From the NCBI GenBank assembly GCA_014804245.1, contig JAAVAE010000026.1, forward strand, positions 68,268 through 117,075: a DNA stretch of 48,808 nt, read 5' to 3'. This DNA comes from Lachnospiraceae bacterium. Its GTDB lineage: Bacteria; Bacillota; Clostridia; Lachnospirales; Lachnospiraceae. The translations under genes were made by a program, and so were the position numbers. Positions 1 through 15,445 of this stretch are shown in pieces. Numbering within the stretch: the stretch's first letter is position 1; each line of letters begins with the position of its first letter. The notes under the pieces were generated by a model. It had not been told where the DNA came from. It worked only from the letters and a program-made list of their open reading frames with translations, and did not search any database.

Positions 1-87
1 TATATAGAAGATATGAGTTTTTGGACAGACTTGAAAGTGATTTTGAAGACGATTCCGGCGGTGTTTGATAGTGAAGGGGCATATTAA
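1..87 (+). CDS. Priming sugar-phosphate transferase, C-terminal end (partial)
   Basis: Only the last 28 codons are present, because the gene begins before the window. The reading frame ends in a Y-I-E-D-x-S-F-W-x-D-L-K-x-I-L-K-T-I pattern followed by a short tail. This is the typical C-terminus of the bacterial sugar transferase family (WcaJ/RfbP/EpsL type). Such membrane enzymes load the first sugar-1-phosphate onto undecaprenyl phosphate and start exopolysaccharide repeat-unit assembly. Its place just upstream of glycosyltransferases, a polymerase and a flippase fits that role. The catalytic part lies outside the window, so the sugar cannot be told. Confidence 0.75.
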   Translation, partial: YIEDMSFWTDLKVILKTIPAVFDSEGAY

Positions 88-129
88 TAAAACTATAAAA
101 GCTGTTATAAGGGATGGTATGGAGACTAT

Positions 130-1248
130 ATGATAGAGATAGATGGAAAAATATATAAAACGGCAATTGTTCATGATTGGGTGTGCAATTATGGGGGCGC
201 GGACAGGGTACTGGAATGGCTGTTACAGATTATGCCAGATTCACCCATATACATAGGATGCTATATGGAAAATCAGCTTTCACCAATGTTAATGAAGGCT
301 GATTTAAGGCCATCCTCTTTGCAAAGAAGACAAAATCAAAAAAGGGATAATCATCAAAAGTTTTTACCTTTTATGCCAACTGCATTCGAGGAATTTGATT
401 TAAATGAGTATGACATAGTTGTCAGTGACAGTAGCTGTTGTGCAAAAGGAGTCATTACGAATCCCAATACGTTACATATCTGTTACTGTCATACCCCGAT
501 GCGATACGCTTATGAGTTTTATTATGAATATACAAAAAGTATGAATCCTTTGAAGAAAAAGTTAGTTAAATATTTCATGAATTATTTAAGGTTGTGGGAT
601 GTATTGTCAGCGAACAGAGTAGACTATTTTGTTGCTAATTCTGAAAATGTAGCGAATAGAATCCGAAAACATTACGCAAGGGAGTCAGAAGTGATTTATC
701 CGCCGGTGAATATTTCCTATTTCCACCCGCAGGAATCAGAAGCAGATTTTTATCTTTGTGTTTCACGGCTTATCAAGCATAAACGTATAGACTTGGTTGT
801 TGAAGCATTTAACGATTTGGGATTGGAATTATATGTTATAGGCGAAGGAGAGGAACTGAAAAATCTTAAAAAAAAGGCAAGAAATAATGTACATTTGATT
901 GGAAGACAACCGGATAGCGTTGTAAAAGATTATTATAGTAGGTGCAAAGCATTTATTTTTCCTACAGAAGAAGATTTTGGTATTACTCCAGTAGAGGCGC
1001 AGGCAAGCGGAAGACCTGTTATTGCATTTGGCAAGGGAGGAGCTTTAGAAACAGTAATAGATGGTATTACTGGTACTTTTTTTGATACTCAGTCGGTAGA
1101 AAGTTTGATAGATGCGGTTCAGAGGCTGGAAACAATGGACATAAAAAAGGAAAACTGCAGAAAGAATGCAGAGAAGTTTTCTGATGAAATATATTATAAC
1201 AAAATGAAAAATTTTATTGAAGATAAATGGAGAGAGTTTGTGAAATAA
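130..1248 (+). CDS. Glycosyltransferase family 4 (WbaZ-like)
   Basis: The 372-residue protein is a GT-B fold retaining glycosyltransferase. The N-terminal half starts with the A-I-V-H-D-W-x-x-x-Y-G-G-A-D-R-V-L-E pattern (residues 12-29), seen in WbaZ-like mannosyltransferases. The C-terminal nucleotide-sugar domain carries VSRL (211-214), G-E-G (238-240) and the E-x7-E region FPTEEDFGITPVEA (277-290). No signal peptide or membrane segment is visible, so it probably works at the cytoplasmic face on lipid-linked sugars. It is the first complete gene of the polysaccharide locus and lies 17 bases before the next glycosyltransferase. Donor and linkage are not predictable; mannose is a guess from family resemblance. 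Confidence 0.9.
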   Translation: MIEIDGKIYKTAIVHDWVCNYGGADRVLEWLLQIMPDSPIYIGCYMENQLSPMLMKADLRPSSLQRRQNQKRDNHQKFLPFMPTAFEEFDLNEYDIVVSDSSCCAKGVITNPNTLHICYCHTPMRYAYEFYYEYTKSMNPLKKKLVKYFMNYLRLWDVLSANRVDYFVANSENVANRIRKHYARESEVIYPPVNISYFHPQESEADFYLCVSRLIKHKRIDLVVEAFNDLGLELYVIGEGEELKNLKKKARNNVHLIGRQPDSVVKDYYSRCKAFIFPTEEDFGITPVEAQASGRPVIAFGKGGALETVIDGITGTFFDTQSVESLIDAVQRLETMDIKKENCRKNAEKFSDEIYYNKMKNFIEDKWREFVK

Positions 1249-1265
1249 AATAGTGGGAGAAGATA

Positions 1266-2486
1266 GTGGGTTATATGCAGATAGAAAATTTGATTGTTGT
1301 AAGCGATTTTGGATATGTAAATGGCGGAAATTCCAAGGTTGCGATTCAGACGGCGCTTGCAGTAAAAAATGATGGTCTAAATGTATGTTTTTTTTGCGGT
1401 GCAGGACCAACAGATGGCAAGCTTATAGAGAAATCTGTGAAAGTTGTTTGTTTGCAGCAGCAGGATTTTTATGAAGGAGATAGTCGAATTAAGGGCTTTT
1501 TTCAAGGTATTTGGAATATAAGAGCTAAAAAGAAATTCTATTATAGTTATAAAGACTTTGACAAAGATAAAACAGCAGTTCATTTTCACGGTTGGTCAAG
1601 AGTGCTTTCTCCATCAGTTATCTATATAGCTTCGAGAATGGGGTTTAGAATTTTTTTCACACTGCATGACTACAATTTGCTTTGTCCAAACGGTTCTTTG
1701 TTTGTATTTCCTAAAAATGAAGTATGTTGTTATCAGCCCTTATCCGGTAGATGCATATTGTGCAATTGTGATAGAAGAAAATATATACATAAACTATATA
1801 GAATATTAAGATTTTTAAGCCAGAAGTATGCACTTAAAAATATTGGAATGTGCAATTTGATTACGATATCACACCAGAATGATACAATTTGTAAAGAATA
1901 TTATGGTAAAGGTAAGCGGATAAAGCTCATTTATAATCCAACAGATACGGATTTGCCAGCAAGAGTTAAGGTAGAAAATAATGATACTTTCATGTTTATA
2001 GGACGAATCTCAGATGAAAAAGGAATTCGTTTGTTTTGTGAGGCTGTTACAATGGGAGGTTATTCTGGAATTGTATTAGGCGATGGCTATTTAGCAAAGG
2101 AATTAAAAAATAAATATGAGAATATTGCTTTTATGGGATGGTGTAAAAAGGAAGATGTCATAAGATATATTCAGAAAGTAAGAGCTCTGGTTTTTCCAAG
2201 CCTTTGGTATGAAGGAGCACCGCTTGTAATAATGGAAATGATGCAATATGGAATTCCTTGTATTGTATCTGATATATCATCTGCAGTGGAGAAAGTTGAC
2301 GATGGCAGAAATGGATATATTTTCAAAAGTAATGATGTAGGTGCACTTATGCAAGCAATGAACAAAATTATGGAGAATAGGCATTTAGAACAGTTTTCGA
2401 TAAATGCTCAAAATAGCTTTATGCAAAATAGTGTTAGCATGGAAATGTATGCGAATGAGTTGCTGAATTTTATACAATATGAATAA
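1266..2486 (+). CDS. Glycosyltransferase family 4
   Basis: A second GT-B glycosyltransferase (406 residues). The N-terminal domain has the G-G-N-S-K-V-A motif (about 21-27) and an FTLHDYNLLCP stretch (about 137-147) typical of GT4 enzymes. It also has a cluster of cysteines around 155-170 that may form a small metal site. The C-terminal domain shows F-I-G-R-I-S-D-E-K-G and FPSLWYEGAPLVIMEMM, the usual donor-binding E-x7-E region. The annotated start is a GTG placed just behind a GGGAGAAG ribosome site; the in-frame ATG at 1275 is an alternative. It probably adds one sugar of the repeat unit. Specificity is unknown. Confidence 0.88.
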   Translation: MGYMQIENLIVVSDFGYVNGGNSKVAIQTALAVKNDGLNVCFFCGAGPTDGKLIEKSVKVVCLQQQDFYEGDSRIKGFFQGIWNIRAKKKFYYSYKDFDKDKTAVHFHGWSRVLSPSVIYIASRMGFRIFFTLHDYNLLCPNGSLFVFPKNEVCCYQPLSGRCILCNCDRRKYIHKLYRILRFLSQKYALKNIGMCNLITISHQNDTICKEYYGKGKRIKLIYNPTDTDLPARVKVENNDTFMFIGRISDEKGIRLFCEAVTMGGYSGIVLGDGYLAKELKNKYENIAFMGWCKKEDVIRYIQKVRALVFPSLWYEGAPLVIMEMMQYGIPCIVSDISSAVEKVDDGRNGYIFKSNDVGALMQAMNKIMENRHLEQFSINAQNSFMQNSVSMEMYANELLNFIQYE

Positions 2487-2504
2487 GAAGGGACGATATA
2501 ATAT

Positions 2505-3446
2505 ATGATAGTTGCGCAACCTACTAATTTGTTGGCAAATCAGATGTTTACATATACTTCTGTTAAATCCATAGCGTTGGATAAACACCTTGAGTTTAAA
2601 TATGTTAACAAATATGCTTCATATGGCGAGAGAAGATATGGCGATATTGACCAAAGATATGGGCAGAATTTTGACACGATTTTTTCGATTCCGGTAGAAG
2701 AATGTATTCATGAATTGCCTTCAAATATATGTGTTGTCAAAGAAAATCAAACTAAACATGGAAACAAAGTATATCATGCATATCAAAAAGAAATGTTGGA
2801 TATGCATGATAATACTTTGGTGGATGGTTTGCTCGCTTCTCCCAAATATTTTGAACATAGATTAAAAGAGGTTCGGAAATGGTTTCAATTTAAAGCGGAT
2901 ATTGAAGAGTGGGCAAATTACAAAATGAAGAATTTAAGAGAAAAATATCCGGGAAAAAAAATAGTATCCATTCATTTCCGGGTTGGCAAGGATTACAGGG
3001 ATAGCGGTTATTTGCTTAAATATGCTTATTGGAAAGATGCAAGCTTATATATGATGGAACAGTACCATAATAATGTTGTATTCCTTATATTTTATGACAG
3101 ATGGATGAACTACCTGGATAGGTTTACGGCTATATTTCCGCATGAAATTTGTCATGGTTCATTGGCAGAAGATTTGTGCATGATGGCAAGATGCGATGGA
3201 AATATTATATCGAATAGTACCTTTTCAATTTGGGGAAGCATTTTGAATGAAAAATCAGAAATAACGATCAGACCCTCTCTTTATCCAATTCATTCTAATA
3301 TGGTTCAGGAAGATTCATTTTTGGATAGCTGGCACGTAATGAAGGCGGAGAGAAGTTTAATATCAGGATTTTTAGGGAAGCTGCATTATGGGGGTATTAA
3401 AAGGCGAGGAGTTAATTTTCTGTATAAGCTACGAAACATAAAGTGA
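2505..3446 (+). CDS. GT11 alpha-1,2-fucosyltransferase (H-antigen type)
   Basis: The 313-residue protein resembles family GT11 alpha-1,2-fucosyltransferases, which move fucose from GDP-fucose onto the 2-position of a terminal galactose. The N-terminal A-N-Q-M-F-T-Y (11-17) corresponds to the family G-N-Q-M-F-Q-Y. HFRVGKDY (157-164) corresponds to the GDP-fucose-binding H-x-R-R-G-D-Y motif, here with a one-residue insertion. VFLIFYDRWMNYL (192-204) matches the family F-S-D-D region, and SNSTFSIWGSIL (236-247) matches the conserved S-N-S-T-F-S-x-W block. Several glycines normal at the N-terminus are missing, so it is a divergent member. The next gene is a GT6 enzyme, which uses exactly this kind of fucosylated acceptor. 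Confidence 0.8.
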   Translation: MIVAQPTNLLANQMFTYTSVKSIALDKHLEFKYVNKYASYGERRYGDIDQRYGQNFDTIFSIPVEECIHELPSNICVVKENQTKHGNKVYHAYQKEMLDMHDNTLVDGLLASPKYFEHRLKEVRKWFQFKADIEEWANYKMKNLREKYPGKKIVSIHFRVGKDYRDSGYLLKYAYWKDASLYMMEQYHNNVVFLIFYDRWMNYLDRFTAIFPHEICHGSLAEDLCMMARCDGNIISNSTFSIWGSILNEKSEITIRPSLYPIHSNMVQEDSFLDSWHVMKAERSLISGFLGKLHYGGIKRRGVNFLYKLRNIK

Positions 3447-3471
3447 AATGTAGCATGGATATGAGGTCATA

Positions 3472-4296
3472 ATGGAAAATACAAAAATTGCAATTTTATA
3501 TATATGTACTGGTCAGTATACGGTATTTTGGGAAGAATTTTATAAATCTTTTCAGGAGCATTTCCTTCCAAATTGTAGGAAGGAATATTATGTTTTTACG
3601 GATAAGGATGATTTATGTGAGAAGGAGAATGTACATTTGACACATATAGACCATCTTGACTGGCCATATAATACATTGCTGCGATTTGAATTTTTTCTTA
3701 AAGTCAAAACGGAATTGGAGAAGTCTGATTATATTTATTTTTTTAATGCCAATATGAAGTGCAATAAGGTGATTTTTGAGCAGGAATTTTTGCCGGATAT
3801 TGCGAAAGGTGAAAAACTGGTTGCTGCGATACATCCATTATATGTAAATGTAAGAAGCAGACACTGCCCCTTTGAACGAGACGAAAGATCACTGGCATAT
3901 GTACCATATACAAGTGAAAGCAAATATATTATGGGAAGTCTTAGTGGAGGCGAAAAAGAAGCGTATTTATCATTGATTTTGGAACTTGCATTTAATGTAC
4001 AGAAAGATTTGCAGAATGGTTTCATTGCAAAGGTTCATGATGAATCCCATTTAAATGCATATGTTACAAAGCATTCTGAATATCAGGTTAAATATTTATC
4101 ACCATCATATATTTATCCGATGGAATTAAGGCCAGCCTATCAGGCATATATTTTGATGTTGGATAAAAAGTTGTATTTTGATGTGTATAAATTTAAAAAA
4201 TGTAAGAAGAAAAGTTTATTGATAAGAGCCATTAATAAAATAATACGGTATTTGCATGAAGATTTAGAATACATTGTATTTCTGCCAAATAGATGA
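3472..4296 (+). CDS. GT6 glycosyltransferase (ABO blood-group transferase family)
   Basis: The 274-residue protein matches family GT6, whose members include the human ABO transferases, mammalian alpha-1,3-galactosyltransferase and bacterial BoGT6a-like enzymes. ILYICTG (8-14), EYYVFTD (38-44) and W-P-x-N-T-L-x-R-F (64-72) are family blocks. FFNAN (90-94) replaces the animal metal-binding DxD with NxN, as known for bacterial GT6 enzymes that act without metal. YIMGSLSGG (152-160) matches the YYMGAFFGG donor region of human ABO enzymes, and HDESHLN (189-195) is the acceptor/catalytic block. It has no membrane anchor, unlike animal homologues. The Ser at the position equal to human 268, where A enzymes have Gly and B enzymes Ala, hints at UDP-Gal, but this is inference. 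Confidence 0.88.
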   Translation: MENTKIAILYICTGQYTVFWEEFYKSFQEHFLPNCRKEYYVFTDKDDLCEKENVHLTHIDHLDWPYNTLLRFEFFLKVKTELEKSDYIYFFNANMKCNKVIFEQEFLPDIAKGEKLVAAIHPLYVNVRSRHCPFERDERSLAYVPYTSESKYIMGSLSGGEKEAYLSLILELAFNVQKDLQNGFIAKVHDESHLNAYVTKHSEYQVKYLSPSYIYPMELRPAYQAYILMLDKKLYFDVYKFKKCKKKSLLIRAINKIIRYLHEDLEYIVFLPNR

Positions 4297-4309
4297 TGAG
4301 GAAAACAAT

Positions 4310-5425
4310 ATGGTTTATTTAGTGCTCTTGCTTTCGATTATTTTATTTCAGATTTTACCTGGAAAAAATATATATTTACATATTGAATCTAAGATGATAG
4401 TAGTGTCAACGAAACGCTTAACCGCGATTTTAACTGCAATAGAGCTAATATTCGTCACAATTTTTAGAAAAAAAACGGTAGGTGCAGACTTAAGTATGTA
4501 TACCAGACTGTTTGAAGCGATTAATAAGTATTCGTGGAGAAGTTTACTGGATAGTAAGTTTGAGCCGGGCTATATGTTCTTTTCTAAGCTTGTACGATGT
4601 TTTAGCGACAATGCACAGGTATTTATTGTTGTCACAGGAATGATAACAGTTGGCTTTTATTTATTAGAAATATTTCGTAAATCTTACAATCCTCTTCTAA
4701 TGATGTATCTGTCATTGACTTATGGCTTCTTTTTCTTTCAATATTCCATGATAAGACAAGTCATTGCAATGACGCTGTTTATGATTGCTGTGGATAAATT
4801 AGGAAAGAAGAAATGGCTGGAATATATTATTATTGTCCTAGTGGCTTCAACATTCCATGCATCTGTAAGTGTATGTCTGCCGCTGGTGTTTATTGTGTTT
4901 TTTCCATGGACGGATCATACGTTAAATTTAATATGGATGGTAGAAATAATAGCGAGTGTTACGTTAAGGGGAATATTGGAGATAATTGTACGTTATATAC
5001 CTAGATATGCATATATATTGAGTGAAAATACCAGTTATAAGGTTGGATATATGGCAAGAATTGCAATTATATGTGGTTTGTATTTAGCCAGCGTATTCTT
5101 CTGTAAAGTGGGATGGCAGGGGAATAAAATGTTTATAAAGAAAGAAGATGACAAGAAGAGTAATTTCGTGCTGATTCTTGGCAGCATAGGAATGATGCTT
5201 ATGCCTATGATTAATTATTTTGAGTCGGCACAAAGAATGACTTATTATTTTATCCCATATGTTTTTTGGTGTGTAGATCTGGCTGTAAATAGAAGTAAAT
5301 GGATGAAACGTATGTTGCCTGCTATATATATTTTACTTGGAATTTATTATTTGCTTTGTTTTACAGGATTTACTTCTGTGCATGATGCGTTTGGCACAAA
5401 TAATTATTTGTTTTTCTGGCAATAA
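4310..5425 (+). CDS. EpsG-family polysaccharide polymerase (Wzy-like)
   Basis: A hydrophobic protein of about 371 residues with roughly 9-11 membrane segments. Features of the EpsG family are visible: a long first cytoplasmic region with G-A-D-L-x-x-Y, an S-M-I-R-Q motif (about residue 145) and F-H-A-S (about 182). EpsG-type proteins polymerise lipid-linked repeat units on the outer face of the membrane. The start at 4310 is preferred over an in-frame ATG at 4274, because a GATGAGGA ribosome site sits 6-7 bases before it and the upstream codon would overlap the GT6 gene. It is the only polymerase candidate in the visible part of the locus. Confidence 0.85.
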   Translation: MVYLVLLLSIILFQILPGKNIYLHIESKMIVVSTKRLTAILTAIELIFVTIFRKKTVGADLSMYTRLFEAINKYSWRSLLDSKFEPGYMFFSKLVRCFSDNAQVFIVVTGMITVGFYLLEIFRKSYNPLLMMYLSLTYGFFFFQYSMIRQVIAMTLFMIAVDKLGKKKWLEYIIIVLVASTFHASVSVCLPLVFIVFFPWTDHTLNLIWMVEIIASVTLRGILEIIVRYIPRYAYILSENTSYKVGYMARIAIICGLYLASVFFCKVGWQGNKMFIKKEDDKKSNFVLILGSIGMMLMPMINYFESAQRMTYYFIPYVFWCVDLAVNRSKWMKRMLPAIYILLGIYYLLCFTGFTSVHDAFGTNNYLFFWQ

Positions 5426-5531
5426 GCCTTTAACAGGAGAAGGGGAAGATAAACAATAATCTGCGTTGTGTTTATCTTATGCAAAGAAAAATGAGATGAT
5501 TATGAGTTCTTATAGAAGGAATTACAAATAT

Positions 5532-6932
5532 ATGAAGAAATATGTTCAATTACTAAAAAATACAGGATTGTTCGCGATTTCTAATATAGCAACAAAATTT
5601 ATTCAGTTTGCATTTTTGCCATTATATACTGCTTACTTAACAACAGCCGATTATGCAATCGTAGATATGTCATTTGTTATACAATCTCTTTTTTGGCCGA
5701 TATTATCGCTTTCACTTACTGATGCCTTATTACGGTTTGCAATGGATCAAGAGTATGATACAAAAAAGGTGTTTACTACTTGCAGTGTGTTAATGCTACC
5801 AGGATTTGCCATTAGTGTATATATTTTTTCATTTGTAAACATAAATGATACTTTATTTTTATATAGGAAATATTTCCTTACTTATTATCTGGTAATTTCA
5901 ATAAATTCATATTTTTCAATATTTGCAAGGGCTATTAATAAAATAAAATTGGTGGTTATTAATTCTGTTCTATCTAGTCTGATGATAGCGGTGTTAAATA
6001 TAGTGTTTCTTCTGGTTCTTAATCTTGGCGTTGAAGGGTATTTCTATTCCTTAATTTTGGGAAATCTTGTAACAGCGTTAGTCTACTTCTATTACGGAAA
6101 ATATTTTTTATTCTTAATCAAAAGATTTTGGAATAAAAATCTCGTAAAGGAATTGTTGGTATATTCTATTCCGCTTATACCCAATTCTGTTTTTTGGTGG
6201 GTTAATTCAAGTTTGGACAAATTTTGTCTAACGACTATGGTTGGATTAAGTGAAGTTGGACTATATGCTGTTTCAGGGAAAATTTCATCGATGTTAAATA
6301 TAGTGACATCCATATTTAGTCAGGCGTGGAGCATATCTGTAATTAAGGAGTATAAAGATAGTGGTTCAGATAAATTTTTCACAATTATTTTCAACATTTT
6401 TAATATTTTAATTTTATTTATGTCATTTGTAGTTATCATATCAATTAAGCTCTTGGCGAAAGTATTATTTTCCAATGAATTTTATCTTGCTTGGAAATAT
6501 GTTCCGTATTTAGTAATTGCATTTTATTTTAATGCTCTAAATGTATATTTTGGATCAATTTTTACAGCGTATAAAAAAACAAATCTAATTTTTTGGACCA
6601 CGGGAGCAGGAGCAATCATCAATTTGTTTTTAAACGTATTAATGATCAAATCAATGGGAACCTTGGGAGCTGCAATTGCAACGATTATAAGCAATATGAT
6701 AGTATATATAGCACGTATAATTTTTGTTAGGAGATATGTGACAATAAGGAGTTCAGCTATAAGTAATTGCATTTTACCAATACTATTGATGATTTTATCA
6801 ATGTCAATGGTCAGTGAAATATCATTTTACATCTCGGCGATTATTTTTGGTGTAGCAATATTCATGATTGCTTATGAGGTAGTTGTTAGATTATTGATTC
6901 CATTTAAAAGAATAAGAAGGGAAGCAATATAG
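5532..6932 (+). CDS. Lipid-linked oligosaccharide flippase (Wzx/RfbX-like)
   Basis: A very hydrophobic protein of about 466 residues with 12-14 predicted membrane helices. It has the N-terminal pattern K-N-T-x-L-F-A-I-S-N-I-x-x-K-x-I-Q-F of polysaccharide biosynthesis (Polysacc_synt/MurJ-MATE-like) exporters. It would move undecaprenyl-linked repeat units across the membrane for polymerisation by the EpsG-like protein. The start is uncertain: ATG 5532 has an AGAAGGA site 11 bases upstream and gives the usual family N-terminus. ATG 5496, ATG 5502 and TTG 5466 are in frame. Base composition is strongly AT-rich, like the rest of the locus. Confidence 0.85.
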   Translation: MKKYVQLLKNTGLFAISNIATKFIQFAFLPLYTAYLTTADYAIVDMSFVIQSLFWPILSLSLTDALLRFAMDQEYDTKKVFTTCSVLMLPGFAISVYIFSFVNINDTLFLYRKYFLTYYLVISINSYFSIFARAINKIKLVVINSVLSSLMIAVLNIVFLLVLNLGVEGYFYSLILGNLVTALVYFYYGKYFLFLIKRFWNKNLVKELLVYSIPLIPNSVFWWVNSSLDKFCLTTMVGLSEVGLYAVSGKISSMLNIVTSIFSQAWSISVIKEYKDSGSDKFFTIIFNIFNILILFMSFVVIISIKLLAKVLFSNEFYLAWKYVPYLVIAFYFNALNVYFGSIFTAYKKTNLIFWTTGAGAIINLFLNVLMIKSMGTLGAAIATIISNMIVYIARIIFVRRYVTIRSSAISNCILPILLMILSMSMVSEISFYISAIIFGVAIFMIAYEVVVRLLIPFKRIRREAI

Positions 6933-7021
6933 ATGATAAATTAAAAAGCATTACATATCATTTTATATAAAATAATAAAGGGAAGGAATATGTGATTTTA
7001 TAAAATACCATATATGTTCAA

Positions 7022-8236
7022 ATGAAAATTATAATTACAAATGTTTATTGTTATCAAAATAAAGGTGATTCTGGGATAATTTTATCAATGATTGAAAATT
7101 TGCAAAAAATTTTTGATAATCCCGAGATAAAGCTGGTTAGTTTATATCCTAATGAAGATATGGGAAAGTATGGTAAAAATGTAGAAGTTTTAAGTCCGAT
7201 AATGTGGAATAATGGGGCTGTTAATAAGTACATTTTGGCGCTTAGAAATATAATGAAGCTTCTGATGAAGTGGGTTCAATATTCCATGGGGATTTTCATA
7301 TCTGAAACTGAGAAAGAGATTGCTTCGGCTGATTTAATTGTAAGTTGTGGCGGGGGCTATATGCAGTCAAGAGATATTAAGAAATTGGTAATGTGTTTTA
7401 GCTATCATTATATTCAATTACTTTGCGCAAAGAAAAGTAAAAGAAAATATGTGATTTTTGCACAAAGCATTGGACCATTTGATTTTATTTCAGCAAAAGT
7501 AGTTAGAGAAATTTTGCAAGAGGCCAGTTTGACTTTAGCAAGAGAATGTTACTCATATGAGTATGTTCAAAAAAAATTTAGATTGAAAAATCTACATTTA
7601 ACTGCCGATACGGCTTTTCTACTGAAGGCTCAAAAAAATTCCTATGAATTTGATAATGACAAAAAAAGGATAGGAATTACGGTTAGAAATTGGATATATC
7701 CAAATTCAAAAAACAAAGATAAAATGAACGAAAGATATATTAATGCATTTGCTCATTTTATTAATGTTTTAGTTGCACAATATGATATGCATGTATATAT
7801 AATGCCACAGTGTACAAGTTTTGGATTGGATAACGATTTGATAATCTCACAGTGCATATATGAAGAGGTAGAAAACCATGAACTATGTACTGTTATAGAA
7901 CAAGATTTTACACCGTATGAATTAAAACATATTTATTCTAAAATGGACTATTTTATAGGCACGCGTATGCATTCGAACATATTTTCACTAGCAGAATATG
8001 TACCTTGTATTGCGATTTCTTATGAGCATAAGACAGATGGTATTATGGAGTCAGTTGGACTTAAAGATTATGTAATAAATATTAATGATATTAGTTATGA
8101 AGTGCTGATTGAAAAGTTTAATGCACTTATAGAGGATAAAGAAATTAGCTTGAAACTTAAAGATTCTGTAGATAGAGTTAAAATTTTTGCAAAGAAGAAC
8201 TATGAATTAATAAAAGATATAGCAGATGAAGGGTAA
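7022..8236 (+). CDS. Polysaccharide pyruvyltransferase family protein
   Basis: The 404-residue protein belongs to the polysaccharide pyruvyltransferase family (WcaK/CsaB type). The N-terminal N-x-x-x-Y-Q-N-K-G-D-S-G region (7-18), the SCGGGYMQS block near residue 110, QSIGPF near 157 and the C-terminal G-T-R-M-H-S-N block (about 313-319) are the family signatures. Such enzymes transfer pyruvate from phosphoenolpyruvate to a sugar as a ketal and add negative charge to the polymer. It closes the visible part of the locus. After it the sequence changes to insertion-element debris. The in-frame start ATG has only a weak ribosome site. Confidence 0.85.
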   Translation: MKIIITNVYCYQNKGDSGIILSMIENLQKIFDNPEIKLVSLYPNEDMGKYGKNVEVLSPIMWNNGAVNKYILALRNIMKLLMKWVQYSMGIFISETEKEIASADLIVSCGGGYMQSRDIKKLVMCFSYHYIQLLCAKKSKRKYVIFAQSIGPFDFISAKVVREILQEASLTLARECYSYEYVQKKFRLKNLHLTADTAFLLKAQKNSYEFDNDKKRIGITVRNWIYPNSKNKDKMNERYINAFAHFINVLVAQYDMHVYIMPQCTSFGLDNDLIISQCIYEEVENHELCTVIEQDFTPYELKHIYSKMDYFIGTRMHSNIFSLAEYVPCIAISYEHKTDGIMESVGLKDYVININDISYEVLIEKFNALIEDKEISLKLKDSVDRVKIFAKKNYELIKDIADEG

Positions 8237-8262
8237 GCGCAGAATAGCAGGGTATACTTTGC

Positions 8263-8287
8263 GAAAAAATCCGGGGGTCCTCGGATT
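8263..8287 (-). terminator. Terminator-like hairpin, minus orientation
   Basis: AATCCG at 8269-8274 pairs with CGGATT at 8282-8287, with further G-C pairs inside. The A-run at 8264-8269 becomes a T-run directly after the stem when read on the minus strand. So it looks like an intrinsic terminator for leftward transcription. The only leftward gene trace nearby is the Rpn-like remnant at 8579-8806. Read on the plus strand it has no T-run and would stop the polysaccharide operon only weakly. Confidence 0.4.
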
Positions 8288-8441
8288 CTCAGCATAATTA
8301 TGATTTATTTGCACAGCGCCTCTGAACTTCTGATAACGTATAATAGATTTCGCAAATTAATTTCATAAAAATAGACATAGTCTATAGTCGTTTGGTAGAA
8401 TTAAGTCACCACAACAAAACCTACTAAAGGAGGCATAAACC

Positions 8442-8525
8442 ATGTCTGATAACATTAGACAACTAAACGAAGACTTAATAAAGGATAGTGTCAAGATTTT
8501 TTTCAGGGAGGCTGTAATTTCCTGA
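8442..8525 (+). pseudogene. IS256-family transposase, 5' stub
   Basis: A perfect AAAGGAGG ribosome site (8426-8432) precedes an ATG and about 18 codons reading M-S-D-N-I-x-Q-L-N-E-D-L-I-K. This is the usual N-terminus of clostridial IS256 (Mutator) transposases, which are normally about 400 residues long. The match stops after roughly codon 18 and the frame closes at a TGA after 27 residues. The rest of the element is missing. Just upstream, ATAGAC-ATA-GTCTAT (8371-8385) is a perfect short palindrome that may have belonged to the element's promoter region. A remnant only. Confidence 0.65.
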
Positions 8526-8578
8526 TAGATGGGACAAAGAATGGAAAAGCTTCAAGCAGTGATGCAATCGTTTCGACA

Positions 8579-8806
8579 TCAGTAACGCTTAACTCTGGGG
8601 CTCTTTTCCATGAGGATAATGCAGTATATTTTGTAGATGTTCTGGAAGGAAAAGAAGATTCCTTGTTCTGCTTTGATTTGTGCGTACTGGCGCATGGTAA
8701 TATCTGAAGCATAACAATCAGCTCTTGCCAGTGGAAAATTGTAACCAATCTTCTGCATTTCTACATTTGCATAAGAACCGTCATCAAGCTTGATGAGGAT
8801 ATCCAT
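8579..8806 (-). pseudogene. Rpn-like nuclease/putative transposase, fragment
   Basis: On the minus strand a 75-codon frame reads M-D-I-L-I-K-L-D-D-G-S-Y-A-N-V-E-M-Q-K-I-G-type sequence, then a R-Q-Y block and I-I-L-M-E-K-S. This matches the central part of PD-(D/E)XK Rpn-family proteins, including the catalytic E-x-Q (E-M-Q). The N-terminus and the whole C-terminal half are gone, and the frame runs out shortly after M-E-K-S. The fragment abuts the IS256 stub on one side and the radical SAM fragment on the other. Not functional as it stands. Confidence 0.6.
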
Positions 8807-8817
8807 GACGACGAAGC

Positions 8818-9420
8818 TTGCCCGTTCACTCAGACCTATATTCTAATGAATTGGACTATACATATATTATTGATTTATTGAAAGATTGTGACTTACATCG
8901 GGTTCGCATTTCTCTAACTGTACCGGATTTTTCATCATATGGAGATGTTAATGCTATTGAATATTTCAAAAAACGTAAGCCATTTTTATTAAAGTTCTTA
9001 CATGATATGCAGGAAAATAATATTCTTCCATATTATGATTGCAATAAACCACCATACTGTATCTGGACGGATGAAGAAAAAGAGTGGTTGGAGAATATGG
9101 TTGCACAATATCATGTTGAAAGTAATTTGATTGGTGATCATTCATTCTGTTATCCGGTAATAGATATTCTGCCAAATCTTCAGGCTGTTCGTTGTTTTGG
9201 TATGTCTGAATACAAAAAAGTAAAAGTAGAAGATTTTAGTGGTGTTTCAGAAATAGCTAGTTATTTTTTGAATCATATTGATTCTGCGAGCTATCAGATT
9301 CCAGCAATTGAAGAATGCAAAGAATGTAAAAAACGTCAAATTCGAAAGTGTACAGCGGGCTGTATTGGTTTTAAAAGTGGTGCAATTACAAAGTTAAATG
9401 ATTATGCAATGATATTGTAG
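8818..9420 (+). pseudogene. Radical SAM/SPASM protein, C-terminal part only
   Basis: About 200 codons remain of a larger protein. The final part has E-C-K-E-C-K-K-R-Q-I-R-K-C-T-A-G-C-I-G-F, a cysteine pattern typical of SPASM or twitch auxiliary iron-sulfur sites. Other cysteines lie in N-K-P-P-Y-C, S-F-C-Y-P and R-C-F-G. The upstream 80 residues look like the last strands of the radical SAM barrel. The N-terminal C-x3-C-x2-C that binds the catalytic cluster is absent, because the sequence joins the Rpn fragment near 8810. The listed TTG is simply the first possible start in the remaining frame. The parent was probably a peptide-modifying enzyme, but no substrate peptide is seen. Confidence 0.6.
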
Positions 9421-9432
9421 GGGTGTGAAGCT

Positions 9433-9582
9433 GTGAAGGATAGACTTTATAAAAAGATATCAATTGGTTTGAATCTTAATGAAAATGAAGATGATATCCT
9501 TACTTTTTTGGAAACATATCAAGATTATTTAAGCAGTATATTGTCAGACGGCACATTGTGGGAGGCGCAAACCGCACGTTGA
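9433..9582 (+). pseudogene. Small frame after the radical SAM fragment, truncated
   Basis: A GTG-started frame of 49 residues lies 12 bases after the radical SAM stop, with GGGGTGTG upstream as a possible ribosome site. The first 36 residues are acidic and helix-like (K-D-R-L-Y-K-K-I-S-I-G-L then an N-E-N-E-D-D stretch and F-L-E-T-Y-Q-D-Y-L). After about base 9550 composition jumps to GC-rich DNA of different origin, so the natural C-terminus is probably lost. I do not recognise it. It may be the start of the second gene of the former radical SAM operon. Confidence 0.35.
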
Positions 9583-9602
9583 TTTCGACGCTTCAGCCTC
9601 CC

Positions 9603-9693
9603 CGACTGCGCAGTCGTGTGGGTGACCGCAAACTTTCAGCGGGGCAGCCGCACGCTGTCGTAGTCTTGCTTGAAAAGCAGGAATCCTGCTTTT
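9603..9693. repeat. GC-rich segment with two perfect palindromes
   Basis: CGACTGCGCAGTCG (9603-9616) is a perfect 14-base palindrome. AAAAGCAGGA-A-TCCTGCTTTT (9673-9693) is a perfect hairpin with 10-base arms. The stretch from about 9550 to 9720 is clearly richer in GC than the DNA on both sides. The hairpin lies beyond the stop of the minus-strand ATPase remnant, so it could be its terminator or part of an element end. No gene is seen in this stretch. Confidence 0.4.
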
Positions 9694-9748
9694 GAAATAA
9701 GGTCATGACAGGAGTCACAGCCTTTGTATATGCACTTTGAAAACTTCA

Positions 9749-9968
9749 TCAGTAAAGCCCCTGGTTGTCAACCGCAGCCCGGATGGTTTCAGCATCAATC
9801 ATTTTTCTGTCCTGCTGGGAGCCGATGGTCAGGGCATCCGTCATCAGATTATCAATTAGATGGGGATTGCCCTGGGTAAAACTATGTACGGCAGCAAGGG
9901 CAGCAGTGTCAATGATGGATGTGGAAGCACCTGCCAGCTTTAGTTTATGCAGCCTGCTTGATTATCAT
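9749..9968 (-). pseudogene. IS-associated AAA ATPase (ExeA/TniB-like), C-terminal fragment
   Basis: The minus strand carries about 70 codons ending at a TGA (9749-9751). They read R-L-H-K-L-K-L-A-G-A-S, then A-V-H-S-F-T-Q-G-N-P-H-L-I-D-N-L-M-T-D-A-L and D-A-E-T-I-R-A-A-V-D. This is the helical C-terminal lid of ExeA-like ATPases that accompany transposases of some two-gene insertion elements. The Walker motifs are absent. A stop codon interrupts the frame directly upstream near 9966. A separate minus-strand scrap of about 30 residues at 9995-10090 may come from another gene. Confidence 0.55.
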
Positions 9969-10096
9969 TGATTTTAAAGGGATTTTGGAGTCAATGGGAT
10001 GCGTCAGCATCGGCACAAGCCTTTACCATTGCCACCGAAATTTCTTTAAAATACTGGTCGTTCAAAAATGCATCAGTGAACGCTGAGCTCCGCAGA

Positions 10097-10791
10097 ATGC
10101 ACACATTCTTTCCTAAAGATATGTTGCAAATAACAGAAGTTAATCAGAAAGAAAAAGCAACACACATTTACTTAAAATCGGAAACGAAAAGCTGTAACTG
10201 CCCGAAATGCGGACAACTTATGGAACAATATCATGGTACATATGTAAGGACTGTTCAGGACCTTCCTATCTTTGGGAAAACTGTCAAGCTGCATGTTAGG
10301 ACACATGAGTATAATTGTAAAAATGACGATTGTGATGTTGCTACATTTGCAGAGAGTTTCAATGGATTTTTGGTTTTATATAGCAGAATGACAGAGCGCT
10401 GCGCTGATTTTATCTGTTCTTTGGCATTAGAAACAAGCTGTGAAGGGTGCTCGCGGATATGTAAAGTATTGAGGATAAGAATCAGTGGCGATACGGTAAT
10501 ACGTCTTCTGTTGAAAAGGTATCAGTTTATGGAAGATACTCCTGTCGGAGAAAGAATCGGAATAGATAATTTTGCTTACAAAAAACGCCACACATATGGA
10601 ACTGTTATCGTGAACGGCGAAACACATAATCCCATCACGTTATTAGATGGACGGGACGGGAAGCCCTAAGAAAGTGGCTGCAAAATAATAAGCATGTTAA
10701 AGTGGTCACCCGTGACAGAGCCAGTGCATACGCAAAAGTCATAGCGGAAGAACTGCCGGATGCCATGCAGGTATCCGGATTATGCGTATAA
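10097..10791 (+). pseudogene. ISL3-family transposase, frameshifted and truncated
   Basis: The frame from ATG 10097 shows the ISL3 layout. There is a zinc-binding N-terminus with C-x-C-P-K-C-G-Q and C-K-N-D-D-C-D, then D-L-P-I-F-G-K, a helix-turn-helix region, and G-I-D-N-F-A-Y-K-K-R-H-T-Y-G-T, which contains the first catalytic Asp of the DDE domain. At about 10657 one base appears to be missing. The listed frame then stops at 10669, while the next frame continues with A-L-R-K-W-L and V-V-T-R-D-R-A-S-A-Y-A-K, the second catalytic region. Homology ends near 10770. The C-terminal half, with the catalytic Glu, is gone, so it is inactive. Confidence 0.75.
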
Positions 10792-11042
10792 TTCCTCGCT
10801 TTTCACAGAGAAAGTGATATCTTTATTTTTGAGGGATATCAAGAGAGACGACAGAATAGAGTTCCAAAACGATTGGAATGAAAAGAGAGACGTACATTTG
10901 AAGGTGAGTGGACTTATATAAAAACCAGATTGGAAAGATAGAAAAAGAAAATATTGAAGATGAGGTGTTGGCTTTCTCGAAGGGGAAGGCGGAAATTTAA
11001 CACAAGTTGATGACATGGACATGTAGAGAGGGGACAGAAGAA

Positions 11043-11468
11043 ATGGCAAAATACACTTTTAAGGTTTATCCGGCTGGTCAGGGCAGAACTATATATCGTA
11101 CTATGGAAATATCTGGAAAAGAAACGCTCGACAGATTATGTGAGTTTATTTTGGAATCGTTTGATTTTATCCATGAGCATTTATATGAATTCTGCATGGA
11201 TAATAGAATGTATAGCGATGACAATTATCAGTATGATCCCGAGGATGGTGGAGCGTCAACGGATATAGTGATAGACAAGATTGGTCTTGTAAAGGGACAA
11301 AACTTTTCGCTTCATTATGATTATGGTGATGACTGGATGTTTACGATTCATGTGCAAAAGATAGAAGATGAAACGAAAACGACATCGCCTAAACTGATTA
11401 AGTCAGTAGGGCATGTAGAACAGTATCCGAATTGGGATGAGTGGGATGATGAAGAGGACGAATTTTAA
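11043..11468 (+). CDS. pRiA4b ORF-3-like (IS1096 TnpR-type) protein
   Basis: The 141-residue protein has the PRiA4_ORF3 domain: an N-terminal F-K-V-Y-P-A, the central H-L-Y-E-F and D-x-x-Y block, then F-x-L-H-Y-D-Y-G-D-D-W-M-F and an acidic tail. The family is common as a passenger of transposons and plasmids; its biochemical role is not established. ATG 11043 is chosen because GAGGGGACAG lies just before it; an in-frame upstream ATG at 11007 lacks a site. It seems intact and stands alone among remnants. Confidence 0.7.
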   Translation: MAKYTFKVYPAGQGRTIYRTMEISGKETLDRLCEFILESFDFIHEHLYEFCMDNRMYSDDNYQYDPEDGGASTDIVIDKIGLVKGQNFSLHYDYGDDWMFTIHVQKIEDETKTTSPKLIKSVGHVEQYPNWDEWDDEEDEF

Positions 11469-11593
11469 ACAACGAGTGTTAATCTTGCAGGAAGTTCATA
11501 ATCAACAGATTCAACGCGCTGTTTTCAGCAGCCTATCGGACTGCTGGAAGCATTATTCGGCAACTGATTTATCATTTTTTAATAAATATTTTA

Positions 11594-11622
11594 TTGACGA
11601 GGCGGGTACGCTTTGATACAAT
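11594..11622 (+). promoter_or_regulatory. SigA-type promoter of Rpn-like copy 1
   Basis: TTGACG (11594-11599) and TACAAT (11617-11622) are separated by 17 bases, a strong housekeeping promoter about 195 bases before the start codon. The leader between it and the gene includes a hairpin formed by GCATTCCC and GGGGATGC near 11681-11699 and contains no recognisable gene. The rest of the 349-base gap at 11469-11817 shows nothing else I can name. Confidence 0.5.
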
Positions 11623-12555
11623 AAATTAAAGCATAGAAATTCTAACGGAAATTCGTTCTATTATCTCATTTTCTAATAGGCATTCCCACAGGGGATGCAT
11701 TATCTGTAGTAGAATCCTTGCTTTATTACCAATTCAAACCAAATAGGGCAGGGAACAGAGAAAATCACCTTTTGCAGAAGGAGACACAGTTCTGCCTGTC
11801 TGACAAAAGGAGGACGAATGGAAGAAACCAACGAAAAGAAAGACACGGTAGAGAAGGAGTTTGTAGCATTCCCGGATATTGCAGCAGATGTGATTAATGT
11901 ACTATTGTACCAGGGGGAGAAGGTAGCAAAAGCAGAAAATCTGCTGGCAGGTCCCACAGAGACCATCTATCAGGGCATGGAGAAACAGCGCAGCCAGTAC
12001 GAGGATTTGTGCAAATATGAGATGGCAGACGGAAAAGTGAACCTCATGTACTTGATTGCCAACCAGAGCAGGACAGATGGCAAGATGCTGCTGCGCAAGG
12101 CTGGCTATGTCGGAGGCGTTTATCGGGAACAATATGAAGAGAAAACGCAGAACATTTTTCCTGTTATTGAGTTTGTATTGTATTGGGGACATTCCAGATG
12201 GAAAAGCAGCCGCGGCATCCGCAGGTTGTTCAGAAAGAGGAAACTAAGCGGGAAGGCATGGGAATATATCGATGAATTGAATCTCCATGTGTTCGAGATG
12301 CGGTATCTGCCGGAAGAGACTAGAAAACTTTTTCAGAGCGATATGCGGATAGTGGCGGACTTCCTTGCAGAGGGAAATGGATACCGTTCCCAAAGAAAGA
12401 TTACACATAAAGCGGCATTGATTAGAATGATCAAGGTGCTTTCTGGTGAAACAGATCTAGAGGATATTGAAGCATGGATGGAAGAACAGGGTGTAAGAGA
12501 GGAGGATGAGGTTACAGTGTGTGAATTATTTGACCAGTATGTTAGACAAGGAAGA
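11613..12555 (+). repeat. Tandem duplication, copy 1
   Basis: This segment recurs at 12751-13693 with a constant offset of 1138 bases. It covers the promoter -10, the untranslated leader with the GCATTCCC hairpin, the ribosome site and about 245 codons of the Rpn-like gene. Similarity is very high and no net insertion or deletion is seen. It ends at the G-R codons just before the C-terminal tails. Confidence 0.85.
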
Positions 12556-12711
12556 GCAGAAGGATTAAGAGAGGGAAGAACTGAGGGCGAAAATCGATTT
12601 GCTGAACTTGTAAAGCTTCTTATTGATGGGGGAAGAAGTGAAGAACTGAGAAAAGCTGTTACTGATCCGGATTATCGAAAGCAGTTATATCTGAAAGCAG
12701 GTTTATCTTAG
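11818..12711 (+). CDS. Rpn-like PD-(D/E)XK family protein, copy 1
   Basis: The 297-residue protein has the layout of Lachnospiraceae Rpn-type recombination nuclease/putative transposase proteins: Q-Y-E-D-L-C-K-Y (60-67), a beta hairpin with Y-L-I-A-N-Q-S (78-84), V-Y-R-E-Q-Y (101-106), P-V-I-E-F-V-L-Y-W-G, and a helical C-terminal half ending in charged repeats of the A-E-G-x-R-E-G type. The family normally has E-N-Q-S where this protein has A-N-Q-S, so the likely metal-binding Glu is absent. AAAGGAGG seven bases before the ATG sets the start. It is one of two tandem copies. The tail reads L-V-K-L-L-I-D-G-G-R-S-E-E-L, unlike copy 2. Confidence 0.75.
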   Translation: MEETNEKKDTVEKEFVAFPDIAADVINVLLYQGEKVAKAENLLAGPTETIYQGMEKQRSQYEDLCKYEMADGKVNLMYLIANQSRTDGKMLLRKAGYVGGVYREQYEEKTQNIFPVIEFVLYWGHSRWKSSRGIRRLFRKRKLSGKAWEYIDELNLHVFEMRYLPEETRKLFQSDMRIVADFLAEGNGYRSQRKITHKAALIRMIKVLSGETDLEDIEAWMEEQGVREEDEVTVCELFDQYVRQGRAEGLREGRTEGENRFAELVKLLIDGGRSEELRKAVTDPDYRKQLYLKAGLS

Positions 12712-12750
12712 ATAATATTTTACCTGTATTACTGCATTTATGCGTATGCA

Positions 12751-13693
12751 TTGATACAATAAATAAAAGCATAGAAATTCTAACGAAAATTCGTTCTATT
12801 ATCTCATTTTCTAATGGGCATTCCCACCGGGGATGCATTATCTGTAGTAGAATCCTTGCTTTATTACCAATTCAAATCAAATAGGGCAGGGAACAGAGAA
12901 AAGCGCCTTTCGCGGAGGGAGACACTGTTCTGCCTGTCTGACAAAAGGAGGACGAATGGAAGAAACCAACGAAAAGAAAGACACGGTGGAGAAGGAGTTT
13001 GTAGCGTTCCCGGATATTGCGGCAGATGTGATTAATGTACTATTGTACCAGGGGGAGAAGGTAGCAAAAGCAGAAAATCTGCTGGCAGGCCCCACAGAGA
13101 CCATCTATCAGGGCATGGAGAAGCAGCGCAGCCAGTATGAGGACTTGTGCAAATATGAGCTGGAAGGCGGAAAGGTGAACATCATGTACCTGATTGCCAA
13201 CCAGAGCAGGACAGATGGCAAGATGCTGCTGCGCAAGGCCGGCTATGTCGGAGGCGTTTATCGGGAACAGTATGAAGGGAAAACACAGAATATTTTTCCT
13301 GTTATTGAGTTTGTGTTGTATTGGGGATATCCCAGATGGAAAAGCAGCCGCGGCATCCGCAGGCTGTTCAGAAAGAGGAAACTAAGCGGGAAGGCATGGG
13401 AATATATCGATGAATTGAATCTCCATGTGTTCGAGATGCGTTATCTGCCGGAGGAGACGAGGAAACTTTTTCAGAGTGATATGCGGATAGTGGTAGACTT
13501 TCTTGCAGAAGGAAATGGATATCGTTCCCAAAGAAGGATTGTGCATAAAGCGGCATTAATTAGGATGATCAAGGTGCTTTCGGGAGAAACAGATACGGAG
13601 AACATTGAAGCATGGATGGAAGAACAGGGAATCAGAGAGGAGGATGAGGTTACGGTGTGTGAATTATTTGACCAGTATGTTAGACAAGGAAGA
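12751..13693 (+). repeat. Tandem duplication, copy 2
   Basis: Second copy of the segment at 11613-12555. It keeps the TACAAT -10 (12755-12760), the leader hairpin and the ribosome site. The boundary cuts the promoter: the duplicated part begins between -35 and -10, and the hexamer at the -35 position is now CTGCAT instead of TTGACG. Downstream of 13693 the two copies diverge fully. Confidence 0.85.
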
Positions 13694-13822
13694 ACTGAAG
13701 GAAGAGCTGAAGAAAGAATCTTTATTATCCACCAACTGCAGAAGGAGGGTGTTGATGAAGCTTTTATCAGTAGGATCACGAACTGTACCAAAGAAGAACT
13801 TGCAATAGCGGCAGGAAGGTAG
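12956..13822 (+). CDS. Rpn-like PD-(D/E)XK family protein, copy 2
   Basis: The 288-residue paralogue is nearly identical to copy 1 over the first 245 residues, with roughly a dozen substitutions. These include E-M-A-D to E-L-E-G and G-H-S to G-Y-P. It also has A-N-Q-S in place of E-N-Q-S. After V-R-Q-G-R the C-terminus is different: a short R-T-E-G-R-A-E-E stretch, then I-I-H-Q-L-Q-K-E-G-V-D-E-A-F-I-S and T-K-E-E-L-A. This is another tail type common in the family. The start has the same AAAGGAGG site. The altered -35 may lower expression, or it may be read from the copy 1 promoter, since no clear terminator separates them. Confidence 0.75.
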   Translation: MEETNEKKDTVEKEFVAFPDIAADVINVLLYQGEKVAKAENLLAGPTETIYQGMEKQRSQYEDLCKYELEGGKVNIMYLIANQSRTDGKMLLRKAGYVGGVYREQYEGKTQNIFPVIEFVLYWGYPRWKSSRGIRRLFRKRKLSGKAWEYIDELNLHVFEMRYLPEETRKLFQSDMRIVVDFLAEGNGYRSQRRIVHKAALIRMIKVLSGETDTENIEAWMEEQGIREEDEVTVCELFDQYVRQGRTEGRAEERIFIIHQLQKEGVDEAFISRITNCTKEELAIAAGR

Positions 13823-13871
13823 TCTATAGCAGCATATTTCAGAAAATCAAAAATAAAGACGGGGAACATCT

Positions 13872-14804: not shown

Positions 14805-14810
14805 ACCCTA

Positions 14811-14839
14811 TTGCAATTTGGATAACAGGGTGCTAAAAT
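14811..14839 (+). promoter_or_regulatory. SigA-type promoter of the rimP-nusA-infB operon
   Basis: TTGCAA (14811-14816), a 17-base spacer and TAAAAT (14834-14839). Transcription would begin around 14846, giving an 85-base leader that contains the terminator-like hairpin at 14869-14897 before rimP. Confidence 0.6.
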
Positions 14840-14868
14840 ACAATAGAATTAAACATAATTACTAATCT

Positions 14869-14897
14869 AGAGTGGACTTCGCGGTCCACTCTTTTTT
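14869..14897 (+). terminator. Intrinsic terminator or attenuator in the rimP leader
   Basis: AGAGTGGAC (14869-14877) and GTCCACTCT (14884-14892) form a perfect 9-bp stem with loop TTCGCG, followed by a T-run (14892-14897). It would end transcripts of the upstream protease gene. It also lies downstream of the predicted rimP promoter, so it may set how much transcription enters the operon. Confidence 0.8.
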
Positions 14898-14930
14898 AAA
14901 GATAACAAGGTGGCAATAAGAGGTGAATGC

Positions 14931-15407: not shown

Positions 15408-15445
15408 GCCTAAGAAAGATAAAGGGCAGAAAGGGATAAGGGAAA

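Follow-up and report, generated by a model that had tools for sequence, protein, structure and literature searches.

A divergent GT11-GT6 gene pair in a Lachnospiraceae exopolysaccharide locus as a variant of a module common to bacteria and phages

In Escherichia coli O86, WbnK of glycosyltransferase family GT11 and WbnI of family GT6 serve one and the same repeat unit, to which they give a branch of blood-group B type (PMC4202792, PMC4506291). In the GT6 enzyme BoGT6a of Bacteroides ovatus (structures 4ayj and 4cj8), an NXN motif replaces DXD and the catalytic residues are a Glu and a Lys (PMC3961637). The same features are found in a GT6 gene that we have studied within a 48,808-nucleotide stretch of DNA from a Lachnospiraceae bacterium, called the window below (positions 68268-117075 of the 140 kb contig C26, from a genome assembled into 59 contigs, 2.93 Mb in total and 59.7% complete). 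This gene follows a GT11-like gene, and the pair sits in an exopolysaccharide (EPS) locus of Wzx/Wzy type (Table 1). The pair is a variant of a common module, with a divergent GT11 and a GT6 from an unusual subclade, in a locus that has no GT2 enzyme. The Gram-negative E. coli O86, compared here by description, has WbnH and WbnJ, whereas the window locus has two GT4 enzymes, no GT2 and the divergent GT11. That an A- or B-like sugar branch is made from this locus is plausible, while neither the donor nor the linkage nor any immune role is proven.

The membership of the GT6 gene in its family is clear from its matches to PF03414 (72.2 bits, E 4e-20, cut-off 25) and to NCBIfam NF041524 (261.8 bits, cut-off 250). 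The best solved relative of its product is BoGT6a (4ayj, E 6.6e-43), and human ABO is matched at about 2e-15; alignment to both had been proposed in a preliminary description of this DNA. The same description had reported a GT11-like gene followed after 25 bases by a GT6 gene with the ABO family blocks YIMGSLSGG and HDESHLN. This was confirmed throughout: both blocks are present, the two genes score over the Pfam or NCBIfam thresholds, and the positions are correct, with both open reading frames (ORFs) on the + strand and a gap of 25 bases (3447-3471) between them. Ten residues (Y16, W64, N67, T68, R71, N92, H121, D190, E191 and K232) are identical to substrate contacts of BoGT6a as tabulated in PMC3961637; BoGT6a Arg243 and His239 fall beyond the aligned part. 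The catalytic residues are in place, with Glu191 in HDES, N92-A-N94 as the NXN motif and Lys232 towards the C terminus, and in an alignment of the window protein with 55 other GT6 rows, taken from the 80 GT6 loci described below (alignment A4), N92, E191 and K232 are present in all 55. The predicted activity is a retaining alpha1,3 transfer of galactose (Gal) or N-acetylgalactosamine (GalNAc). Met154 of the window protein sits at the column of ABO position 266, where 21 of the other rows also have Met, and in human GTB a Met at this position goes with Gal (PMC4202792). Gal is therefore the likelier donor, though less surely so with a Ser at the ABO-268 column; BoGT6a, by contrast, transfers GalNAc. 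GT6 genes are rare in these organisms: 4 of the 397 family genomes and 2 of the 398 phylum genomes have a match above the cut-off (each number including the window's own genome), and a contig scan with the GT6 sequence alone found no relative. A transfer of the gene from Prevotella, to which a shared Met-Ser-(Val/Tyr) set had pointed, is unsupported, since the tree places the window GT6 elsewhere.

The pairing of GT6 with GT11 is a general feature of bacteria and phages, a widespread module. A contig scan returned 218 GT6 loci, of which we kept the best 80, several of them ending at contig ends within 8 kb; the GT11, GT2 and GT4 labels of the compared loci come from small custom profiles, with Pfam run on selected proteins only. 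A GT11-like gene was present in the fetched stretch of 63 of the 80 loci, and within 50 bp of the GT6 in 34 of the 80 (overlaps, opposite strands and fusions included). Where both occur as separate genes (60 loci), they are direct neighbours in 34 loci, 31 of them on the same strand, against a shuffled expectation of 11.0 (standard deviation 3.0, maximum 22 in 2000 shuffles). According to Pfam, both domains are also found within one ORF in three cases, with GT6 first in L073 and L117 and GT11 first in L110, and these ORFs are candidate bifunctional blood-group-like synthases. Neighbouring so far above the shuffled level, together with the gene fusions, supports two enzymes acting on the same glycan. 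Along these lines, the distances among the GT6 proteins and those among their GT11 partners are correlated in a set of 33 pairs, with r 0.53 where shuffling gave 0.24 at most, a figure to which shared species history contributes. Pairs occur also in Chitinophaga, Patescibacteria and marine cyanophages: in Synechococcus phage B23 (L172, 3210-4720) the GT11 gene and a gene that matches the window GT6 share 4 bases, in cyanophage P-SSM2 (L173, 1737-4693) two genes separate GT11 and GT6, and a tblastn search with the window GT6 matched 71 phage records. The O86 pair has been described before (PMC4202792, PMC4506291); of the pairing as a general module we found no description in open-access text.

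Cassettes with the same GT11-GT6 order were found mostly in the same bacterial family (L059, L070, L072, L060, L064, L071, L067 and L104); unlike the window, these have a GT2 gene directly before GT11 and a GT11 with the motif H-x-R-x-GDY. Tight pairs are held by nine other loci titled Lachnospiraceae, Clostridia or Clostridiales (L052, L059, L064, L067, L070, L071, L072, L078 and L104), so that the pairing is less notable for a Gram-positive EPS locus than the preliminary description had it. That description overlooked how common GT6-GT11 pairs are, other Gram-positive bacteria included, as well as the altered motif I of the GT11 and the absence of GT2 from the locus.

Judged by its sequence, the window GT11 is a divergent member of its family. 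It matched PF01531 with 38.8 bits (E 8e-10, cut-off 23.9) over profile positions 117-295 only, had no match in NCBIfam and found nothing in the PDB up to an E value of 1. The C-terminal block NS(S/T)(F/Y)S is present as NSTFS at residues 237-241, and the identity to the GT11 of five other GT6 pairs is 19-22%. Only two close kin were found, in genomes G015 (L158) and G266 (L159), with 38 and 34% identity to the window GT11. Both share with it the motif HFRVGKDY and the NSTFS block, and they differ from it in retaining LGNQ and in having no GT6 match in their genomes. These three proteins, which we call v-type, form a clade with support of 100/100, its stem is 1.95 changes per column long, and the GT11 of the Lachnospiraceae family are nearest to it (the tree leaves out L101 and L116, as well as 3 of 13 unpaired controls for which no usable ORF was obtained). 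By this tree and by its distribution, the v-type clade is rare and fast-evolved: 3 of the 397 family genomes, the own one included, have close full-length matches, and at E 1e-20 there was a match in the own genome only among 371 genomes of the class, while a GT11 of any kind scores above the cut-off in 66 of the 397. A profile of the v-type proteins (A5) matched no solved structure, and a wider one (A3), for which 52 of the 57 GT11-like proteins from GT6 loci were aligned with the window GT11, matched human FUT8 (6tkv) with E 5e-4 at profile positions 137-242. A comparison of A5 with A2, the alignment of the window GT11 with the GT11 of five other pairs, was discarded as circular, since the window protein is part of each.

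A way to approach the donor of such a divergent enzyme is to look at the sugar-nucleotide genes of the genomes that carry it. G266, 98% complete, has gmd and fcl, its v-type gene is the only GT11 match (4 of 4 candidates scored), and GT10 was not found in it, a combination that favours GDP-fucose as the v-type donor. In G015, the v-type gene has gmd and fcl at a distance of 16-17 kb. All three v-type proteins retain the first Arg of motif I, called critical in HxRRxD (PMC4202792). Fucose use is thus suggested by the gene content of G266, and less by that of G015, while transfer of fucose to O2 of Gal by the window GT11 is putative only. In the window genome at least five other genes also pass the GT11 cut-off, on contigs C58 and C22, four of them inside a 37 kb part of C58 (3191-39485); 5 of 11 GT11 candidates of this genome were scored, and the window gene itself is outside those five.

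The third peculiarity of the locus is the missing GT2. WbnJ of E. coli O86 is presumably a GT2 beta-galactosyltransferase. We have compared the window with 34 other tight same-strand pairs, 31 from the best-80 set plus L008, L043 and L044 (L009 and L042 were dropped because they lie on the same contigs as L104 and L074). A GT2 gene stands directly beside the pair in 24 of these 34 and somewhere in the stretch in 32, the exceptions being L058 and L118. At the window locus, no GT2 able to supply a beta-Gal acceptor was found: the custom profile gave no match at E 1e-3 in window positions 1-12000 and in L002, the stretch upstream on the same contig, and Pfam found none among the L002 ORFs from 9479 to 16355 and the window ORFs from 130 to 8236, where, besides the pair, it named only two GT4 enzymes and the priming enzyme. 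The second GT4 gene adjoins the pair, in the slot that, by comparison of gene order, holds mostly GT2 in the other Lachnospiraceae pairs. GT4 enzymes retain the anomeric configuration of their donor, so that a Gal added by a window GT4 would be alpha-linked. At least one GT2 with the motif DxDD, which has been associated with enzymes that transfer Gal or Glc in beta1,3 linkage (PMC4202792), is present in 31 of the 34 other pairs, and the motif occurs in 27 of 31 GT2 within 400 bp of a pair vs 33 of 57 farther away. We do not take DxDD to prove that an enzyme is a beta1,3-Gal transferase, given its presence in those 33 more distant enzymes.

Taken together, these observations suggest that the pair may build the branch in an exopolysaccharide of Wzx/Wzy type. 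A lipid-linked primed sugar would be lengthened by the two GT4 enzymes; the v-type GT11 would add fucose, probably in alpha1,2 linkage, to a hexose of the repeat; and GT6 would next add Gal (GalNAc being less likely) in alpha1,3 linkage onto the same hexose. The product would be a hexose-alpha1,3(fucose-alpha1,2)Gal-like branch, similar to the B or A determinant but carried by a core that differs from the usual beta1,3-Gal one, and the module would work as the bacterial GT6-GT11 type known from E. coli O86 does, with a divergent fucosyltransferase swapped in. To such sequential addition of fucose and Gal (or GalNAc) to one hexose, with an A- or B-like branch on a non-classical core as the outcome, we give an even chance. 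Within it, we infer fucose as the GT11 donor, the order of action, the linkages, the GT6 donor and the place in the repeat.

Several results weigh against this sequence of events. The window GT11 shares just 15-27% identity with the 52 other GT6-associated GT11-like proteins. Its motif I reads HFRVGKDY, not HxRRGDY, with the second Arg replaced by Val and one residue inserted, and its N terminus has LLANQMF where GLGNQMF is usual, so that the GxGNQ motif is broken. The preliminary description would have taken loss of the GDP-fucose site as a refutation, and half of this was found, the first Arg having stayed and the second having gone. Linkage by GT11 enzymes is also not always alpha1,2, as HhFT2 makes alpha1,3 (PMC4202792). 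G015 holds two GT10 matches and another GT11 besides the v-type gene, and the argument by exclusion consequently rests on G266 only. In the window genome no gmd over the cut-off and no fcl were found, the best gmd-like match being a CDP-glucose 4,6-dehydratase. This last point is weak and says little for or against fucose, the genome being 59.7% complete and carrying five other GT11 matches; the same-genus genome G264 has both gmd and fcl. On the side of GT6, Trp189, Gly157 and Thr134 of BoGT6a correspond to Val188, Ser156 and Pro133 in the window protein, column 188 being Trp in 49, Tyr in 3 and Val in 3 of the 55 other rows, and position 123 is Leu where 42 of the 55 have Gly.

A last point of this kind comes from the GT6 tree (85 rows), in which the window protein groups with L049 and L099 (Synergistaceae), L050 (Treponema) and L051 and L052 (Lachnospiraceae), with support of 98/92. 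The nearest GT11 is of the strict HxRxxD type in none of the five other members of this subclade vs 56 of 75 loci elsewhere, a count that considers only the nearest GT11 of each locus and in which L101 and L116, with HVRRGD, miss the strict pattern. A Fisher value for this contrast takes related loci as independent, and we give it no weight. In L050, L051 and L052 the nearest GT11 carries SVKVEHN or SIKVEHN at motif I, and no GT11 was found in the stretches of L049 and L099. The acceptor of this GT6 subclade may therefore differ from the usual one. The picture is not a simple one: in L052 another GT11-like ORF, with HARRGD, lies farther out at 4.5 kb from the GT6, L050 and L052 do hold GT2 enzymes with DADD, and Val at column 188 is also found beside canonical GT11 partners. 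In the rumen Synergistaceae stretch L049, tandem GT6-like genes (7189-8855) stand alongside apparent efflux genes, as judged by eye, with no evident polysaccharide cluster.

The alternative that survives best takes these deviations at face value. The v-type GT11 might form another fucose linkage or use another GDP-sugar, and GT6 might act on a different branched acceptor, so that a novel branch without blood-group likeness would result. The long stem of the fully supported v-type clade, the alteration of both its motif I and its N-terminal motif, the company that the GT6 subclade keeps and the Val at the Trp189 column all point in this direction. Against it stands G266, by gene content a maker of GDP-fucose, with the v-type gene as its sole GT10/GT11 candidate. 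Two of the changes are also less telling on closer comparison. A Val for the second motif-I Arg does not disprove use of GDP-fucose, as Ile, Leu, Met or Lys takes this place in other GT6 partners, and loss of the Trp is not decisive for a changed acceptor, as L123 and L126 have the same Val next to GT11 neighbours with HIRRGDY. The farther GT11-like ORF of L052 likewise speaks against a subclade wholly deprived of canonical partners. We consider the novel branch rather unlikely, though not negligible.

A related proposal concerns the history of the pair. The GT11 genes of L050-L052 and of the window fall in different parts of the GT11 tree, which makes them partners of differing origin. GT6 and GT11 could form a portable cassette whose fucosyltransferase half is exchangeable, and the subclade of the window, Treponema, Lachnospiraceae and Synergistaceae may, in two or more independent events, have lost its canonical H-type partner or exchanged it for GT11 enzymes whose donor motifs are altered, and would make a branched epitope that owes its construction to the chemistry of the ABO family and yet differs from human blood-group antigens. 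We offer this tentatively, as clearly less likely than not.

Classic mimicry, in which a true H antigen (fucose-alpha1,2-Gal-beta) would be turned into a human-type A or B antigen, either as a shield from host immunity or as an elicitor of anti-A/B antibodies, appears unlikely. It was the central idea of the preliminary description, in which the polysaccharide carried H plus A- or B-like epitopes. The linkage of the two genes in one locus and the idea that they act on a shared glycan are supported, the family identities of both enzymes and the ABO-like blocks of GT6 speak for this reading, and such epitopes have been reported for E. coli O86 and Helicobacter mustelae (PMC4202792). On the other side, the H antigen needs a beta-Gal, and the window lacks the GT2 present in 32 of the 34 other tight pairs; the GT11 falls outside the canonical H type, and both window enzymes deviate from the usual pattern. 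The suggested role in immune evasion does not follow from the pair. As the module is widespread and occurs also in free-living bacteria and cyanophages, it does not imply host contact, and a GT6-GT11 pair in a gut bacterium is by itself no evidence of host mimicry. Mimicry is possible, yet nothing that we could read in the sequence calls for it. That one of the genes is inactive or the locus a decayed remnant making no such epitope is improbable, since, in spite of the mobile-element remnants and broken reading frames just downstream (8440-10700) and of the LGNQ lost by the window GT11 and retained by both its v-type kin, none of the seven polysaccharide ORFs between 130 and 8236 is interrupted, the active-site residues of GT6 are retained and the window has no ambiguous base (N).

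Table 1. Genes of the window EPS locus and GT11-containing ORFs of other GT6 loci that are discussed in the text.
Feature	Stretch	Position	Strand	Evidence
GT4 glycosyltransferase	Window	130..1248	+	PF00534 110.6 bits
GT4 glycosyltransferase	Window	1266..2486	+	PF00534 87 bits
Divergent GT11 (v-type), putative fucosyltransferase	Window	2505..3446	+	PF01531 38.8 bits, alignments, tree
GT6 glycosyltransferase, bacterial type, NAN replacing DXD	Window	3472..4296	+	PF03414, NF041524, BoGT6a alignment
EpsG-type polymerase (Wzy role)	Window	4310..5425	+	PF14897 134.7 bits
Wzx-type flippase	Window	5466..6932	+	PF01943 78.3 bits
Polysaccharide pyruvyl transferase	Window	7022..8236	+	PF04230 126.9 bits
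GT6-GT11 fusion ORF	L073, Magasanikbacteria	1226-2803		Pfam
GT6-GT11 fusion ORF	L110, Gastranaerophilales	3870-5363		Pfam
GT6-GT11 fusion ORF	L117, Hoeflea	7647-9587		Pfam
GT11 without HxRRGDY, near or next to GT6	L050	11717-12667		Pfam, over cut-off (82-94 bits for the three)
GT11 without HxRRGDY, near or next to GT6	L051	877-1824		Pfam, over cut-off (as above)
GT11 without HxRRGDY, near or next to GT6	L052	7025-7999		Pfam, over cut-off (as above)

GT11 and GT6 are neighbours in one polysaccharide locus, followed by the polymerase and the flippase. The longest form of the EpsG ORF starts from a TTG at 4274, the ATG at 4310 being the likelier start. Upstream of the window, in L002, Pfam identified CpsB, Wzz, a ParA-like kinase, LytR-CpsA-Psr and the priming sugar transferase. 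The G+C content is 32% over positions 1-9500 vs 43% over 15000-48000, a difference of the kind that an acquired locus would show. Upstream on the contig stand two successive EPS regulatory cassettes with CpsB, Wzz, kinase, LytR and further genes (L007:10126-16019 and L002:9509-15346), which have 74-75% DNA identity, the first of them preceded by an ORF that by eye looks integrase-like. L002 contains 118 ambiguous bases in 108 runs (5503-16268), clustered from 5503 to the base just before the window and with 46 runs beyond 9000; these clusters look as if strains had been mixed in the assembly. One gene is present in three copies, of which the two in the window (11606-12564 and 12744-13702) are 93% identical to each other and 87-89% to the upstream one (L002:7252-8271). 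After the EPS locus, positions 8440-9700 hold remnants that include a short broken reading frame, the ORF at 8818-9420 is cysteine-rich at one end and matches nothing in Pfam, and a zinc-ribbon gene resembling those of insertion sequences lies at 9968. A search for inverted repeats near the EPS loci gave no convincing invertible promoter.

For the families concerned, the occurrence of GT6 in several Lachnospiraceae and other Clostridia goes beyond the picture given in a paper of 2014, in which all bacterial GT6 but one were said to come from Gram-negative species (PMC3961637). Genes of the ABO family and of a fucosyltransferase family are linked, and at times fused, over many phyla, cyanophages included. 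The divergent partner found in the window would be a concrete case of how far a GT11 may drift while still feeding a GT6. As for Gram-positive sources of natural anti-A/B antibodies, the canonical cassettes would be better candidates than the window locus.

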